Source: Marinitoga sp. 38H-ov (lineage in GTDB: Bacteria; Thermotogota; Thermotogae; Petrotogales; Petrotogaceae). From it: a DNA stretch of 64,000 bases. The notes beneath the pieces are model-generated. The model had not been told where the DNA came from and searched no databases. It saw only the letters and a program-made list of their open reading frames with translations. Position numbers and translations under genes: made by a program. Location of the stretch: positions 1 to 64,000 of the forward strand of contig NZ_LNGH01000015.1 of assembly GCF_011057715.1 (NCBI RefSeq), written 5' to 3'. Shown one piece after another: positions 19,997 to 27,758 of this stretch (positions within the stretch are counted from its first letter, which is position 1; the number at the start of each line of letters is the position of its first letter).

Positions 19997-20018
19997 GCAG
20001 CTCAAAGCTGCCTATTTC
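19992..20018. terminator. Shared terminator of clpC and the nag operon
   Basis: The 11-bp stem AATAGGCAGCT/AGCTGCCTATT (19992-20002, 20006-20016) contains the clpC stop codon and touches the nagA stop codon. The T-tract is short on the plus side (TTTCCTT). Confidence 0.8.
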
Positions 20019-21081
20019 CTTCATATATAGTCTGTATTATTTCTAAGTCTTTAGATAATATAACTAAGTTAGCAATATAATTTTCTTTTATTCTACCTTC
20101 ATTAAAAATATTTAAATTTTGTAAGGCGTTATATGAAGAGATTTTAGCTAATTCCTGTAATGAACAATTAGTGGAATTATAAAAATTTCTAATTGCAATA
20201 TCAAAAGTCAATGTGCTTCCTGCAATAGTACTATCTTTTAAAGTGGCTTTTTTGTTTTTTACAAAAACTTCTAGACCACCTAAAGAGTATTTTCCATCAT
20301 CTAAACGAGTAGCTGGTATTGAATCAGTAACTAATATAATATCTTCAATATTTTTAATACTATATACTAATTTGACAAAGTCTGGAGATAAATGTATATT
20401 ATCAACAATTAATTCCAATTTAAAATCATTTAATAATCCTGCACCAACCCCTCCAATTTCCCTATGATGTAATGGTTTAATAGCATTAGGAAAATGAGTA
20501 ATCCTGTTGATTCCAAATTCTAGAGATTTTTTGTATGCATTATAATCCCCATCAGAATGCCCTAAAGAAATAATAACATTTTTTTCTTTTAAAAAATTAA
20601 TAGTGTCAAAAAATCCTTCTAATTCAGGAGCCATAGTAATTATTTTTATTTTGTCACATATTAAATCTTTTAAATATTCTAATTTTGGATTGTATATATA
20701 ATCTTCATTTTGAGCACCTTTTTTCTTTTTATTAATAAAAGGGCCTTCCAAATGAATACCTTTAGCAGATAAAATAGGTTCAAAGTTAATAATAATATTT
20801 TTTAATTTTTCAATAGATGCTGATACAGTAGTTGGATAAAATCTAGTCACACCATGAGAAAAATTTTCTTCTGCCCATCTTTTTAAATCATCTTTTGTTG
20901 AATTCATAAAATCTATACCCTTGTATCCATGGGTATGTGTATCAACAAAACCTGGCATTAGAATATAATTATATGTTTTATCGTGTTTTTTAATAGATTT
21001 TATTAAATTACCTTCTATAACAACATCTCCAACATATTCACCATCAATGGGATCTACTATTAAAACATTTTCTATTAACAT
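20002..21081 (-). CDS. nagA: N-acetylglucosamine-6-phosphate deacetylase
   Basis: NagA removes acetate from GlcNAc-6-phosphate. The 359-residue amidohydrolase shows the metal-site motif PGFVDTHTHG (His49 and His51), HLEGPF near residue 115, SLGHSD near 174, THFPNAI and LVTDSIPAT with the catalytic Asp. An AGAGGTG precedes the ATG. It is the last gene of the seven-gene GlcNAc operon and starts 3 bases after the deaminase-like gene, giving consecutive pathway steps GlcNAc-6-P to GlcN-6-P to Fru-6-P. Confidence 0.95.
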   Translation of the reverse strand: MLIENVLIVDPIDGEYVGDVVIEGNLIKSIKKHDKTYNYILMPGFVDTHTHGYKGIDFMNSTKDDLKRWAEENFSHGVTRFYPTTVSASIEKLKNIIINFEPILSAKGIHLEGPFINKKKKGAQNEDYIYNPKLEYLKDLICDKIKIITMAPELEGFFDTINFLKEKNVIISLGHSDGDYNAYKKSLEFGINRITHFPNAIKPLHHREIGGVGAGLLNDFKLELIVDNIHLSPDFVKLVYSIKNIEDIILVTDSIPATRLDDGKYSLGGLEVFVKNKKATLKDSTIAGSTLTFDIAIRNFYNSTNCSLQELAKISSYNALQNLNIFNEGRIKENYIANLVILSKDLEIIQTIYEGNRQL

Positions 21082-21084
21082 ATT

Positions 21085-21999
21085 TCACCTCTTTAAAATA
21101 ACAGATTTACTTAAATTCTTTGGATTATCGGGATCTAATCCTTCTAAAATAGCTTTTTTAAAGCCAATATATTGAGGTAATATAATTCTCAAAATACTAT
21201 CAAATCCATTATTATATTTTATTTTTAAATCACCATCTTCTGAAACCAATATAATTTTTGCACCCATATTTCTTAATTCATTTGCTAAAACTCTTTCTTC
21301 ATATGTATCTTTTGAATAGATAACTATTAAACTTTTTTCTGTTAAAGTTGATTTTGGGCCATGTCTATATTCTAGAGGTTCATGAAATTCTACATTTTGC
21401 ATAGCCATTTCTTGTACTTTTAAGGCGCTTTCTTTTGCTACACCATATTGCTCATTAAATCCTAAAAATACAAAATGATTATAATTTTTTAAATCTATAG
21501 AATCCACTAAATTTTTAATATTATTTAGTATTGTAATATTTGAATAATCATGAAACTCTATTCCATTAAGAAGAAAATTTAGTATAAAAACAAATGAACC
21601 AGTCATAACTACACTTTCTTCATTAGCAAAGTCAAATATATAATTTTCTGTACATTTTTTTGTTAATGATGAATTAGATGTACAAGTTATACCAATTGTT
21701 TTAATATTTTTAAATCTTTCAATTGCTTGTACAGTTTCTGTTGATTCACCGGTTCTTGATATAAATATTGCTATATCTGTTTTTGGTACTTCGTCAAAAA
21801 CTATTACTTCTCCACCAGATATTACATTTGAATTATAACCAAATTTATTCATTATTTTAGATACAATTAAACCTAAGTTATATGAAGAACCACAACCAAT
21901 AAAAGTGTATTTTTTATTTTTTTCAAATTTAAAATTATAATCCTTTACTCTACTTAATAATTTAGGTATTCTATTGATTTCTTTTAATGTATAATTCAT
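21085..21999 (-). CDS. SIS-domain glucosamine-6-phosphate deaminase (NagB-II/GlmS-like)
   Basis: The 304-residue protein has two SIS domains like the isomerase half of GlmS but no glutaminase domain. Motifs include FIGCGSSYNLG, FISRTGESTETV near residue 92 and EYRHGPKSTL in the second domain. Such proteins act as an alternative deaminase (NagB-II) in Thermotoga and Shewanella, turning GlcN-6-P into fructose-6-P. The position next to nagA supports that role; AgaS-like activity is an alternative. The start ATG (21997-21999) overlaps the stop of the upstream permease as ATGA, so the longer frame from 22110 is rejected. Confidence 0.87.
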   Translation of the reverse strand: MNYTLKEINRIPKLLSRVKDYNFKFEKNKKYTFIGCGSSYNLGLIVSKIMNKFGYNSNVISGGEVIVFDEVPKTDIAIFISRTGESTETVQAIERFKNIKTIGITCTSNSSLTKKCTENYIFDFANEESVVMTGSFVFILNFLLNGIEFHDYSNITILNNIKNLVDSIDLKNYNHFVFLGFNEQYGVAKESALKVQEMAMQNVEFHEPLEYRHGPKSTLTEKSLIVIYSKDTYEERVLANELRNMGAKIILVSEDGDLKIKYNNGFDSILRIILPQYIGFKKAILEGLDPDNPKNLSKSVILKR

Positions 22000-23207
22000 C
22001 CTTTCACAGCTCCTTGAGTTATACCAGAAATAATATGTTTTTGAAAAATTAAAAATGCAATTATAACAGGTATTCCAATAATTGAAGATGCTGCCATTAA
22101 TATTGGCCATTCAACTTGATTGAATTTTTGAAATAAGGCTAATCCAACCTGCACTGTTCTCATATCTTTTGAGGTTGTCATAACTAATGGATAAAATAAA
22201 TCGTTCCAGGAGGTGATAAATGTATTTATTGACATTACTGCAATTGCCGGTTTAGATAATGGGAAAATTATATAATATAGAATTTGAAATGTATTAGCCC
22301 CATCAACATATGCAGCTTGTTCTAACTCAATTGGCAATTGTTCTATATATTGTTTTAATAAAAAGATACCAAACGGAGTTACTAAAAATGGGATAATAAG
22401 AGAATAATATGTATTTATCCATCCAATATTTTTCATAATTATAAATATAGGGATTATAGTTATTTGTGGAGGTATCATCATAGTTGCTAATACTATTAAA
22501 AATAATACATTTTTTCCAAAAAATTCTCTTCTTGCAAAAGCATATGCAACTGAAGTGGAAAAAATAATATTTCCTAAAACTACAGCTAAAGCTATAATTA
22601 AACTGTTAAACATATATCTTCCAAAATCATTTTCTTTCCATACTATAATAAAATTCATTAATGTTGGAAATTTATACTTTATTTTAATATCATCAATATA
22701 TACGCTAGTATTTTTACTGAAAACAAAGCCAATTTTGGTAATATGTTTTAAATCTATATTTTCTATTGTTTTTAAATTTATATTTACTTTTTGCCAGTTA
22801 TTATCCTTTAATTTAATAGGATATCTAAATACATTTTCATCAATATCATTGAATTCAACTACAAAATTATTTACATTTTTAACATAAAAAGAAATATATT
22901 TTGCAACGCGTAAATCCATATCGCTTGTTAATAATTCAACACTTTCTTCATCATTAAAAATATCTATTTTTAAACTCTGTGTTGAAGTTGGTGAATCTTT
23001 AACCAAAGATATCTTTGCATTTGTTTTAATCTTTCTTTTTATATAATTTATATATTTAACCTCAAAATCATTTATATATTTTTCTGTAATTACATTGGTT
23101 AAATTTCCTTGAGGTATAATTGCTGTAAAAAACATAGTAATTAATGGAAATAAAGAAATACCCAGGATTATAAACATAAATATTAAAAATAAAGTTCTTT
23201 TCATCAT
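21996..23207 (-). CDS. Sugar ABC transporter permease (MalG-type) with extracytoplasmic beta-sandwich insertion
   Basis: The C-terminal 220 residues are a normal MalG-like permease with the ATPase-contact EAA motif EQAAYVDGANTFQILYYIIF. The protein is 403 residues, about 125 longer than usual. The extra sequence (about residues 40-178) lies between the first membrane helix and the rest, so it should be outside the membrane. It is beta-rich and ends in NTSVYIDDIKIKY, like jelly-roll carbohydrate-binding modules. The gene overlaps the upstream permease and the downstream deaminase by 4 bases each. It probably imports GlcNAc oligosaccharides with the adjacent permease and binding protein; no ATPase gene is in the operon. 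Confidence 0.88.
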   Translation of the reverse strand: MMKRTLFLIFMFIILGISLFPLITMFFTAIIPQGNLTNVITEKYINDFEVKYINYIKRKIKTNAKISLVKDSPTSTQSLKIDIFNDEESVELLTSDMDLRVAKYISFYVKNVNNFVVEFNDIDENVFRYPIKLKDNNWQKVNINLKTIENIDLKHITKIGFVFSKNTSVYIDDIKIKYKFPTLMNFIIVWKENDFGRYMFNSLIIALAVVLGNIIFSTSVAYAFARREFFGKNVLFLIVLATMMIPPQITIIPIFIIMKNIGWINTYYSLIIPFLVTPFGIFLLKQYIEQLPIELEQAAYVDGANTFQILYYIIFPLSKPAIAVMSINTFITSWNDLFYPLVMTTSKDMRTVQVGLALFQKFNQVEWPILMAASSIIGIPVIIAFLIFQKHIISGITQGAVKG

Positions 23208-24128: not shown

Positions 24129-25325
24129 TTAATGGTTTAATAATTGCTGTATTTTTAAATTATAATATCTTAAAGTAGAATCTATATCTTCATTTTCTAA
24201 TATAATCTTTTCTATAGCTTCTGTTAAATATTGTTGTATTTTAAACCATTGTGGATTTGAAGGAGCAGGTTTTGCATACTTATTTTGTTCATAAAATGTT
24301 TTATGTAATGGATGATCATCAAACCAAGGATCTTTATCTGCACCAACTACTGATGGAAATACAGAAGGTACTAATTTTGTAACTTGCATTGCAACATCTG
24401 ATCTTAATAAATATTTAATTAATTTTATAGCAGCTTCTTTATTTTTTGATTGTTCAGTAATTGCTAAAACTTCAGCTCCAGCAAATGAAGCATGTGTTCC
24501 ACTCCATTTATTTGGTTTTGGTAATAATGTTACATCAAATACTATATTAGGATAATTTTTTTCAATACCATCTATGTCCCAAGCACCACTTACATACATA
24601 CCAATTTTACCCTCACCAAAAGCTTTAGCTAAATCTGCTTGTTTTGTTTTTAAAGAATATTTAGAAAGTGCCTTATAAAATTCTGCTGTTTCTATAACCT
24701 TTGTTGAATATAATTGTGATTTATCATCAACTATTATATCTCCACCATTTCCCCAAACAGCAGGCAAAAACCATTGTTGCCAAGGGCTAAAGTTTTCTCC
24801 AGCACACATACCAAATCCATATATATTATCACCAACTTCGTTTATTTTTTTAGCAGCTACATATAATTCTTCCCATGTTTCTGGTGGATTATTAGGATCT
24901 AATCCTGCTTTTTCAAATAAATCTAAATTAAAGAATAAGGCTCTTGTTCCTAATAGCCATGGCATAGCCCATATATGACCATCATATTTTACAGAATCCC
25001 AACCAAAATATTTCTCAACGTCAGCATAATTATCTAGATTTGTTATAGTTTTTTGACTTGCAAAATTAGCTACCCAGGTATTACCTAATTCAACAACATC
25101 TGGAGCATTATTTGCAGCAATAGCTGTTACTATCTTATCAAATCCATTTGACCAAGATAATTGTACATATTCCACTTCAATATCTGGATTTTCCTTCATA
25201 AAATCATTTAAGATTTTTGCTGATGATTCATCATCGAGCATAAATCCCCAAAAAGTTATCTTTGTTTTTCCAAATGAAAAAACTACTAACAAGCTTAAAA
25301 CCAATACCAATAATGCCTTTTTCAT
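24129..25325 (-). CDS. Sugar ABC transporter substrate-binding protein
   Basis: The 398-residue protein has a typical Sec signal peptide (residues 1-19, ending SFG) without a lipobox cysteine. The family-1 binding-protein pattern follows: KITFWGFM, then FMKENPDIEVEYVQLSW and APDVVELGNTWV. It should deliver a carbohydrate to the two permeases encoded downstream. The GlcNAc-oligomer substrate is inferred from nagZ and nagA in the same operon. It starts 2 bases after the nagZ stop with AAAGGGGG as RBS. Confidence 0.93.
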   Translation of the reverse strand: MKKALLVLVLSLLVVFSFGKTKITFWGFMLDDESSAKILNDFMKENPDIEVEYVQLSWSNGFDKIVTAIAANNAPDVVELGNTWVANFASQKTITNLDNYADVEKYFGWDSVKYDGHIWAMPWLLGTRALFFNLDLFEKAGLDPNNPPETWEELYVAAKKINEVGDNIYGFGMCAGENFSPWQQWFLPAVWGNGGDIIVDDKSQLYSTKVIETAEFYKALSKYSLKTKQADLAKAFGEGKIGMYVSGAWDIDGIEKNYPNIVFDVTLLPKPNKWSGTHASFAGAEVLAITEQSKNKEAAIKLIKYLLRSDVAMQVTKLVPSVFPSVVGADKDPWFDDHPLHKTFYEQNKYAKPAPSNPQWFKIQQYLTEAIEKIILENEDIDSTLRYYNLKIQQLLNH

Positions 25326-25327
25326 AG

Positions 25328-26707
25328 TTATACCCCCTTTTTAATAGCCTTAATGGCTTGATATATAGAAATTAATTTTGTAGAATATGTAATAATATAT
25401 GAACAATCATTATAATATTTTTCATCTTGATCATTTCTAATAATCACATATATAGCATTTTTTAAACCTTTATGCATATTTAACTGTTTAGGGAATCTAA
25501 ATGAATCAAGAACAAAAGAAATGATTTTTAAATTTGGATCAAATTTTTCTGATAATACCCCATTTAATGGATTATATTTTATAATTTTTGATTTTTTAAA
25601 TTCCAGTTTAACAAGATTTTCTAATTTTTCTAAATCATTTGCTGTAGTGTCGGCTTGACTTAAATTAATAGCTTCTGGAATTAAAATAATATCAGGATTA
25701 TCAATATTCTTTTTTATATGTATTTTTAAAGAGTTTTTAGCAATATCGATTAAAAATTTACCTTCATATTCATTATTGAAATATTTTTTTTGTAATTCAA
25801 TTATTCTGTATATTTTATTATCCAAAATATTTTTATTAATTTTACTTTCAATTAATGCATTATATGCTGGATAAAAATTTTTTCTAGCATCAGATATTAA
25901 TAATATATCTCCTCCATTATTAAAAAACATATCTATTTTTTCTGGAAAATAATTGTTATAAAAAGCTTTCATTTCAATTGCATCACTTATTACAATACCT
26001 TTGTAGTTTAATTTTTTTCTTAATAATTCATCTAAAATAACCTTAGATACTGTTCCTAATTCATTATCAAGAGGTTTATAAATTACATGAGCTGTCATTA
26101 ATATCTCTATTTCATTAATTAATGTTTTAAATGGAAAAATATCATCGTCATCAAAAGAGAAGTCAAAAATAATAGGAGTTTCTTCGTGAGAATCTTGTTT
26201 TGCTTTTCCATGTCCCGGAAAATGTTTTGGAGTTGGAAGAATGTTGTGTTCTTTTAATCCTTTAATATAATATTTACCAAATTCTGTTATTGTTTCAACA
26301 TTATTAGAAAAAACCCTTAATCCAGTTACAGCGCTTGAATCTTCATGTAAAACATCTAAAACAGGAGAAAAAACCATATTAAACCCATATTCTCTTAATT
26401 TTTTTCCTAAATATTTTGCATAATCATATGCAGAATTAATATCATTTTTTCCAATTGCATAATTACCAGGAGATGATAAAATTCCAGGAACTGTTTCTAA
26501 TTGCCCTCCTTCATGATCTGAGGATATTAATAATGGAATATTTAAAGAATATAGTTTATCCATAGATATTTGTAATTCTTCAATGCTTTTCATGTTGTCA
26601 GGATATAATATTACACCAGCTGGTTCATAATCTTTTATAATATTTAATGCTTCATCATCTAAACCATCTGGAAAACCTAAAAAAAATAATTTTCCGTAAT
26701 TATTCAT
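25328..26707 (-). CDS. nagZ: GH3 exo-beta-N-acetylglucosaminidase (NagZ-type), cytoplasmic
   Basis: The GH3 domain contains KHFPGHG followed by DSHEETP, the Asp-His dyad typical of NagZ, and the nucleophile Asp in VISDAIEM. No signal peptide is present, so it acts in the cytoplasm on imported oligosaccharides such as chitobiose or muropeptide sugars. At 459 residues it is longer than E. coli NagZ (about 340); the C-terminal 110 residues form an extra domain I cannot assign. It overlaps the ROK gene by 8 bases and has AGAGGCG as RBS. Confidence 0.9.
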   Translation of the reverse strand: MNNYGKLFFLGFPDGLDDEALNIIKDYEPAGVILYPDNMKSIEELQISMDKLYSLNIPLLISSDHEGGQLETVPGILSSPGNYAIGKNDINSAYDYAKYLGKKLREYGFNMVFSPVLDVLHEDSSAVTGLRVFSNNVETITEFGKYYIKGLKEHNILPTPKHFPGHGKAKQDSHEETPIIFDFSFDDDDIFPFKTLINEIEILMTAHVIYKPLDNELGTVSKVILDELLRKKLNYKGIVISDAIEMKAFYNNYFPEKIDMFFNNGGDILLISDARKNFYPAYNALIESKINKNILDNKIYRIIELQKKYFNNEYEGKFLIDIAKNSLKIHIKKNIDNPDIILIPEAINLSQADTTANDLEKLENLVKLEFKKSKIIKYNPLNGVLSEKFDPNLKIISFVLDSFRFPKQLNMHKGLKNAIYVIIRNDQDEKYYNDCSYIITYSTKLISIYQAIKAIKKGV

Positions 26708-27758
26708 AATATCGCCTCTTTAAAAATGTTTTTAAAAATTTATCTGACTCAAAAAGTTTATGTAAAATCAATGAAGCTGCTCCACGTGAAGTTAAGAAAT
26801 CCTCAGCTGAGGTATGATTAATATATATATCTCTATTTTTATACATAAAAATATGATTTTTAATACCTCTAATTAGATTTTTTAAAAAATCATCTCCTAA
26901 AAGAGTAATATTTCCTCCAATTAATACATTATCAGGATCAAAGATACTAATATATTCACCAATTTTTTGAGAATATAGTTCTATAAACCGAGTAAAATTA
27001 TAATCTTTTATATTATGCAATAAATCATTAAATGTTGTATTATTACTTGAATCAACTAAAGGTATATTTAATTCAACTTCACCAGCATAATTATTGCTAC
27101 CATGAAATAATTTATTATTTATTATAATTCCTATACCAGTTCCAACAGGTTCATTTACATAATATGGAACAGAAATATGGAAATATAATATATTTTTATA
27201 TTCATCTTTTAAGTTAAAATATAATGCACCACAATTGCTATCATTTTCAATATATACAGGTATATTTTTTAATTCTTTAATTAAAGGAAATCTTTCAATA
27301 TTTAATGCTTTGGAATATATAATTTCACCATTTGATATTATTCCAGGTAAAGAAATGCCAACTCCAAAAATTTTATTGTTTTTAAATTCATCATATGCAT
27401 TTTTAATTTCATCAACTATATTGTTTTTATCTATCTTTAATATTTTTCTTTTGGATTTTAAAATATTTCCTTTTAAATCAGTTAAAATCACTTCAATTCC
27501 ATCTTGTTCAATTGATATCCCCAATACATTACCAATAGAATAATTAAATCCATATATAGATGTTTTTCGTCCTCCTTGAGGAGATGCTGATAATTCATCT
27601 ATTTTTTTAATTAAATCTAAATCTTTTAATTTATTAAGAGTTCTTGAAACTGTGGATTTTTCTAAGGATATATCATTTGATATTTCCATTAAGTAAGTTC
27701 TATCCTTTTTCCATATATAATTTAAAGTTTTTATAAGAGAATCTGTAATTTTTATCAT
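26700..27758 (-). CDS. ROK-family transcriptional repressor of the GlcNAc operon
   Basis: An N-terminal winged helix (about residues 15-60, with SLEKSTVSRTLNKLK as recognition helix) is followed by a ROK sugar-binding domain with GISLPGIISNGEI, VYIENDSNCGAL and GTGIGIIINNKL. The DxGxT phosphate loop of ROK kinases is absent (GISIEQDG instead), and the zinc-binding cysteine cluster CxCGxxGCxE is not present. It should therefore sense sugar without phosphorylating it. It is the first gene of the operon, with an inverted repeat just upstream, so autoregulation is likely. Confidence 0.9.
   Translation of the reverse strand: MIKITDSLIKTLNYIWKKDRTYLMEISNDISLEKSTVSRTLNKLKDLDLIKKIDELSASPQGGRKTSIYGFNYSIGNVLGISIEQDGIEVILTDLKGNILKSKRKILKIDKNNIVDEIKNAYDEFKNNKIFGVGISLPGIISNGEIIYSKALNIERFPLIKELKNIPVYIENDSNCGALYFNLKDEYKNILYFHISVPYYVNEPVGTGIGIIINNKLFHGSNNYAGEVELNIPLVDSSNNTTFNDLLHNIKDYNFTRFIELYSQKIGEYISIFDPDNVLIGGNITLLGDDFLKNLIRGIKNHIFMYKNRDIYINHTSAEDFLTSRGAASLILHKLFESDKFLKTFLKRRYYE

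Follow-up and report, generated by a model that had tools for sequence, protein, structure and literature searches.

In type I sugar importers, the binding protein is usually seen as the sole periplasmic specificity part. The E. coli CUT1 importer MalFGK2 has a large periplasmic domain on one of its membrane subunits, the Ig-like P2 domain of MalF. P2 is made of ~180 amino acids inserted between TM3 and TM4 (PMC2246101) and lies around MalE (PMC8134467). The Thermotogales permeases MalG1 and MalG2 were described in 2008 with a hydrophilic region of ~500 amino acids between TM1 and TM2, the function of which was left unexplained (PMC2246101). In Thermotoga maritima, the ChiEFG transporter belongs to the ChiR regulon; this regulon was assigned to chitobiose, the predicted substrate of ChiEFG and a sugar to which ChiR responds, and its operon content is the same as that of the locus described here (PMC3750489).

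The window, a stretch of 64,000 nucleotides from Marinitoga sp. 38H-ov, contains an operon encoding, in this order, a ROK regulator, a GH3 enzyme, a sugar-binding protein (SBP), an F permease, an insert-bearing G permease, a SIS isomerase and NagA (Table 1). Like MalFGK2, this CUT1 importer has a large periplasmic domain on a membrane subunit, but the domain lies in the TM1-TM2 loop of MalG and not in the TM3-TM4 loop of MalF, and is predicted to be a CBM-type sandwich. It shares its phylum and its insertion point with the MalG1/MalG2 loop but is shorter (~149 against ~500 amino acids). The original prediction had considered this architecture to be without precedent among characterised importers; this holds for the solved MalG-type structures that were aligned, from which the domain is absent, but not for its position, at which the MalG1/MalG2 loop is also found (PMC2246101). 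CUT1 permeases with an accessory periplasmic domain are a known class, and it is this type of domain at this position that appears to be new. Our search of the open literature, which is no proof of absence, found no paper on this domain or on a CBM-like domain within an importer permease.

Table 1 Features of the operon and of the insert-bearing permease (positions in the window)
Feature	Coordinates	Strand	Basis
ROK-family regulator, ChiR-like	26700..27758	-	PF00480; gene content of the operon matches the ChiR regulon (PMC3750489)
GH3 beta-N-acetylhexosaminidase, CbsA/NagZ-like	25328..26707	-	PF00933, PF21566 NagA_C; NF003740 below cut-off
Sugar-binding protein (SBP) of the transporter	24129..25325	-	PF01547, E 1.5e-46
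Partner MalF-type permease, 291 aa, without large P2 loop	23204..24079	-	PF00528; UgpA/GlcT-like
MalG-type (CUT1) ABC permease, ChiG-like, insert carrier	21996..23207	-	403 aa, ATG start, no stops
TM1, residues 2-30	23118..23204	-	Helix in model and MalG alignment
Predicted inserted beta-sandwich domain, residues 34-182	22662..23108	-	Insert-less alignment, AlphaFold2 and CBM11/CBM30/agarase-CBM matches
EAA-type coupling motif EQAAYVDGA...IIFP, residues 296-316	22260..22322	-	Sequence
SIS-domain sugar isomerase, GlmD/NagB-II-like	21085..21999	-	PF01380; GlmD E 3.3e-37
NagA, N-acetylglucosamine-6-phosphate deacetylase	20002..21081	-	TIGR00221, 293.9 bits (cut-off 225.65)

Position and predicted fold of the insert

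The open reading frame reported for the permease was found to be intact; it lies on the minus strand, which the original prediction had not specified. Pfam analysis identified BPD_transp_1 (PF00528) above cut-off over residues 220-395 (E = 1.3e-18), and no Pfam match over cut-off was found for residues 1-200. The nearest NCBIfam models for the 403-residue protein were UgpE, MalG and GlcU, each under its own cut-off. Its assignment to the MalG-type CUT1 permeases is based on the PF00528 fold, on the EAA motif (A298, A299, D302, G303 and P316 are invariant in the permease alignment) and on the presence directly upstream of genes for an SBP_bac_1 protein and a second BPD_transp_1 permease. Alignment with insert-less CUT1 permeases revealed that ~149 residues (~34-182) between TM1 and TM2 had no counterpart in these proteins; TM1 is followed by the insert, then by the usual PTLxNF... 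segment and by TM2-6 with the EAA motif. Since the N-terminus of TM1 is inside, the insert is extracytoplasmic. This alignment, together with the matches to MalG folds described below, agrees with the initial description of the protein as a MalG-type permease with an insert in its first extracytoplasmic loop; the limits of the insert, first set at residues 40-178, proved correct within a few residues.

AlphaFold2 modelling of the full permease using 21 aligned sequences gave a mean pLDDT of 78, with a value of ~85 for the insert. When the insert was modelled alone with 22 aligned relatives, the pLDDT reached 90.4 (pTM 0.84) and the predicted structure was a beta-sandwich with about eleven strands. 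The top Foldseek match of this model was the Clostridium thermocellum CBM11 (1v0a, E = 2e-8). VIA-align comparisons with this module (Z 15.4, 136 residues, rmsd 3.1, 20% identity) and with an exo-beta-agarase CBM (4bq2; Z 15.3, 136 residues, rmsd 2.4) gave similar values; CBM30 (Z 14.4) and CBM29 were also among the best fold matches. With few exceptions, among them a complex I factor, the top matches were sugar-active proteins; this factor, NDUFAF1 (CIA30), was aligned over 143 residues with an rmsd of 3.4 (Z 14.5) and reelin gave a Z of 12.7. In the full-length model, CBM11 was matched separately over residues 32-183. The non-insert part resembled the MalG, SugB and AlgM2 subunits (Z 16-18, ~245 residues aligned), the full-length model giving a Z of 17.9 with both the MalG chain 3puy_G (248 residues, rmsd 4.0) and SugB 8hps_B. 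Because the MalG-type match covers the rest of the chain and CBM11 covers the insert, the insert is an addition to those solved structures.

At the sequence level, the insert domain is an orphan: none of 22 inserts matched a Pfam CBM model above cut-off, the weak best hits being CBM_3 (E = 0.47) and, for one member, Agarase_CBM (E = 0.0029). Profile comparison with the PDB gave 1gui (the CBM4 of the T. maritima laminarinase) as its top hit, which was not significant (E = 0.078). The CBM11 of C. thermocellum Lic26A-Cel5E (1v0a, 6r31) and the agarase CBM (4bq2) share their fold with almost the entire insert, but the insert is only ~20% identical to them and, unlike these modules, is not attached to an enzyme. 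A galactose-binding-like, CBM-type jelly-roll beta-sandwich extending across the whole domain is well supported by the models. In agreement with the jelly-roll fold first proposed, the predicted fold is a sandwich, and the C-terminal motif VYIDDIKIKY on which that proposal drew is conserved, D172 being invariant and D173 present in 85% of the sequences.

Distribution of the insert and exchange of the transporter

Of 103 Thermotogota genomes searched with a profile built from 13 inserts, 32 contained the domain; they represent 15 of the 38 genera and five families, and in every case the carrier was this permease. Frames with the insert were 392-425 aa long, save at contig ends and in the frameshift-rich assembly G003. 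Conservation in 32 genomes, almost always in intact frames, together with a fold predicted at a pLDDT of 90, indicates that the insert is not a chance extension of the open reading frame. A full-length-alignment scan of named genomes recovered the insert-bearing form from Thermotogota records only. No insert was found in 45 genomes from other phyla, a set reached via permeases resembling the core and without its own positive control. Candidate extended permeases outside Thermotogota (L132, L144 and L166) were rejected as overlong starts, and other permease frames of intermediate length within the phylum proved to be either start artefacts or members of the long-insert family.

Other permeases with large extra regions are encoded in the same genome. 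L171 (G000:C6, 737 aa) and L172 (G000:C16, 862 aa) have TM1-TM2 inserts of ~470 aa and more; L005 (G000:C17) and L006 (G000:C53), two BPD_transp_1 proteins of ~457 and 554 aa with an extra stretch before the core, appeared OppC-like by eye. When the insert was compared with those of 15 permeases with a length of 737-805 aa, whose inserts span 471-541 aa, the hhalign probability was 0.1; homology to the inserts of these 15 proteins was rejected as unsupported, and the partial overlaps of long-insert frames with the insert are most likely extension noise. The 862-aa type (L172) is closer in length to MalG1/2 than these 15 permeases.

A permease tree was built from the membrane core alone, excluding the insert. 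All 29 insert-bearing rows were found on one side of a single branch (support 95/86), corresponding to one change; the survey of other permeases that had been proposed with the original prediction thus returned one clade within the phylum. The nearest insert-less relatives (L050, L051, L201 and L202) are also Thermotogota proteins, with a permease core ~50% identical, and the genomes G100 and G101 hold both forms. Within the clade, no loss of the insert was seen beyond contig ends and one error-rich assembly. The simplest history is that the insert was gained once, at the root of the clade; an earlier gain followed by a loss in the insert-less sister clade is a possible alternative. The existence of closely related insert-less transporters indicates that the insert is dispensable for such a permease. 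In Marinitoga lauensis LG1, the operon was repeated across contigs with many frameshifts (L093, L094, L095 and L097), which probably reflects an uncorrected long-read assembly and not a real duplication.

Outside the genus, the insert-bearing G permease was found with SBP and F proteins ~52-62% and ~58-71% identical to those of the window, respectively (48% for the broken F frame of L098). The F partners of the f11 relatives (L243:5574-6845, L249:6023-7300 and L088-L090) are ~370-425 aa long and contain an additional segment with many hydrophobic helices, which is missing from the 291-aa partner in the window. The SIS open reading frame as listed begins inside the permease gene (21996-22110), and its true start is likely Met38 at 21999; this start would overlap the permease stop in the sequence ATGA, which suggests translational coupling.

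Based on coordinates, a GH3 gene was present within ~5 kb of the permease in 24 of the 32 genomes with an insert. At loci without GH3, a gene close to the permease encoded either a NAGidase of family GH84 (L244-L247) or an enzyme of family GH20 (L249), and L096 contained an additional GH18 enzyme. Together with the operon content, these neighbours point to GlcNAc oligosaccharides as the likely cargo, in line with the chito-oligosaccharide setting assumed at the outset. The transporter is a probable importer of GlcNAc oligosaccharides (chitobiose or chitin oligosaccharides).

In Thermotoga-like genomes (G095 and G098; loci L237 and L238), the whole operon was found with an unrelated transporter. 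These genomes keep the ROK regulator, GH3, NagB-II and NagA, but their SBP, F and G proteins are only 26%, 32-33% and 34-37% identical to those of the window; their G permease (274-276 aa) has no insert and forms a separate branch of the tree. On the likely assignment of these genomes (G093-G099) to Thermotoga, the window transporter is not orthologous to the ChiEFG proteins (25-37% identity), although the gene content of the operon is shared. Judged from these comparisons, one of the two lineages has replaced its transporter within a conserved operon, and the insert goes with the transporter, not with the enzymes. Since the Thermotoga-like operon has no insert, the domain is tied to the transporter lineage and is not needed for chitobiose uptake.

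Residue conservation and candidate roles of the insert

The insert is the fastest-evolving part seen, with a mean pairwise identity of 29.6% against 69.4% for the membrane core. D121, D172 and P181 are invariant across the 15 genera and five families. The only aromatic residues conserved family-wide are F48 and W138, plus F180 in the linker; F48 and W138 are probably structural, judging by their motif positions (in DFE and at a strand start, respectively). D47, E49, D121, D172 and D173 are the polar residues that are invariant or well conserved; the f11 relatives L088-L090 have N at position 47 and Q at position 49. By analogy with many CBMs, the polar residues of the DFE and DD motifs could perhaps form a metal (calcium) site. 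Y44, Y52 and a Y or W at position 108 are retained in the sub-clade of the window; elsewhere in the family they are replaced by R, K or other residues, and other sub-clades have different sets of aromatics. An exposed aromatic binding platform is possible in the sub-clade of the window, but none is conserved family-wide. The fast drift of the insert and its changing aromatics argue against one conserved ligand site and are compatible with sub-clade-specific sugar binding.

Our preferred reading, held tentatively, is that the insert serves in the periplasm as a platform that docks or stabilises the cognate binding protein, in the manner of MalF P2; docking had also been raised in the original prediction, as one of two possibilities. 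This reading is favoured because the insert is found on the periplasmic MalG side, the F partner has no P2 and the P2 domain of MalF lies around MalE; the conserved residues are mostly structural, which agrees more with a scaffold than with a sugar site common to the whole family. A MalG-like subunit would have gained a CBM-like beta-sandwich in its first periplasmic loop early in Thermotogota evolution. Probably positioned next to the docking surface for the binding protein, on the external side of the permease, this domain may help to capture, orient or stabilise the sugar-loaded cognate binding protein; sugar binding by the insert, if any, would probably be an added property of some sub-clades. 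Both this role and the contact of the insert with the binding protein are inferred. Three observations count against docking: the fastest-evolving part of the transporter is ill-suited to a tightly conserved docking surface, its top fold matches are mostly sugar-active proteins, and the insert-less relatives work without the domain.

We prefer such a platform to a working CBM, a role that we regard as doubtful. A CBM would hold chito-oligosaccharides near the pore and either raise the local substrate concentration or pass the sugar on to the binding protein. Indeed, the best matches by fold are sugar-binding modules (CBM11, CBM30, CBM29 and agarase CBMs), the closest PDB profile, although not significant, is also that of a CBM, the operons serve GlcNAc glycans, and Y44, Y52 and the aromatic at 108 are conserved in the sub-clade of the window. 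These three aromatics are lost elsewhere in the family, however, the same fold is found in the sugar-free proteins NDUFAF1 and reelin, and the domain is missing from the Thermotoga-like version of the operon. The idea that the insert holds the sugar, part of the original prediction, fits poorly with the missing family-wide platform, the fast drift and the non-sugar proteins sharing the fold. More doubtful again is a permease with a functional CBM built in at the pore entrance, which would split sugar recognition between the binding protein and the permease.

It also seems unlikely that the insert is a structural or assembly domain, steadying the permease pair at high temperature or aiding its folding with no direct role in recognition. 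The fold signature is kept despite strong sequence drift, the insert is found only in a largely thermophilic phylum, and NDUFAF1 has the same fold and acts on a membrane complex, but as an assembly factor and not as part of a transporter. In the same genome, however, such a domain is missing from most other permeases, and the insert-less sister clade shares some organisms with the insert clade (G100 and G101), so thermostability alone offers no explanation. Very improbable is a near-neutral, fast-drifting remnant of an ancient insertion that no longer has a function: conservation is the lowest among the transporter parts compared and the insert is confined to a single clade, but the intact frame, the fold signature and D121, D172 and P181 are kept, with no loss of the insert apart from the incomplete or error-rich records noted above.

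Implications for Thermotogota importers

With a CBM-like domain anchored on its MalG side, the importer would have a second periplasmic module in addition to the binding protein. Operons of the same content occur both with the insert and without it, and so offer a natural comparison. Large first-loop insertions are frequent in Thermotogota permeases and have stood unexplained since 2008; the insert would provide a first fold-level handle on them.
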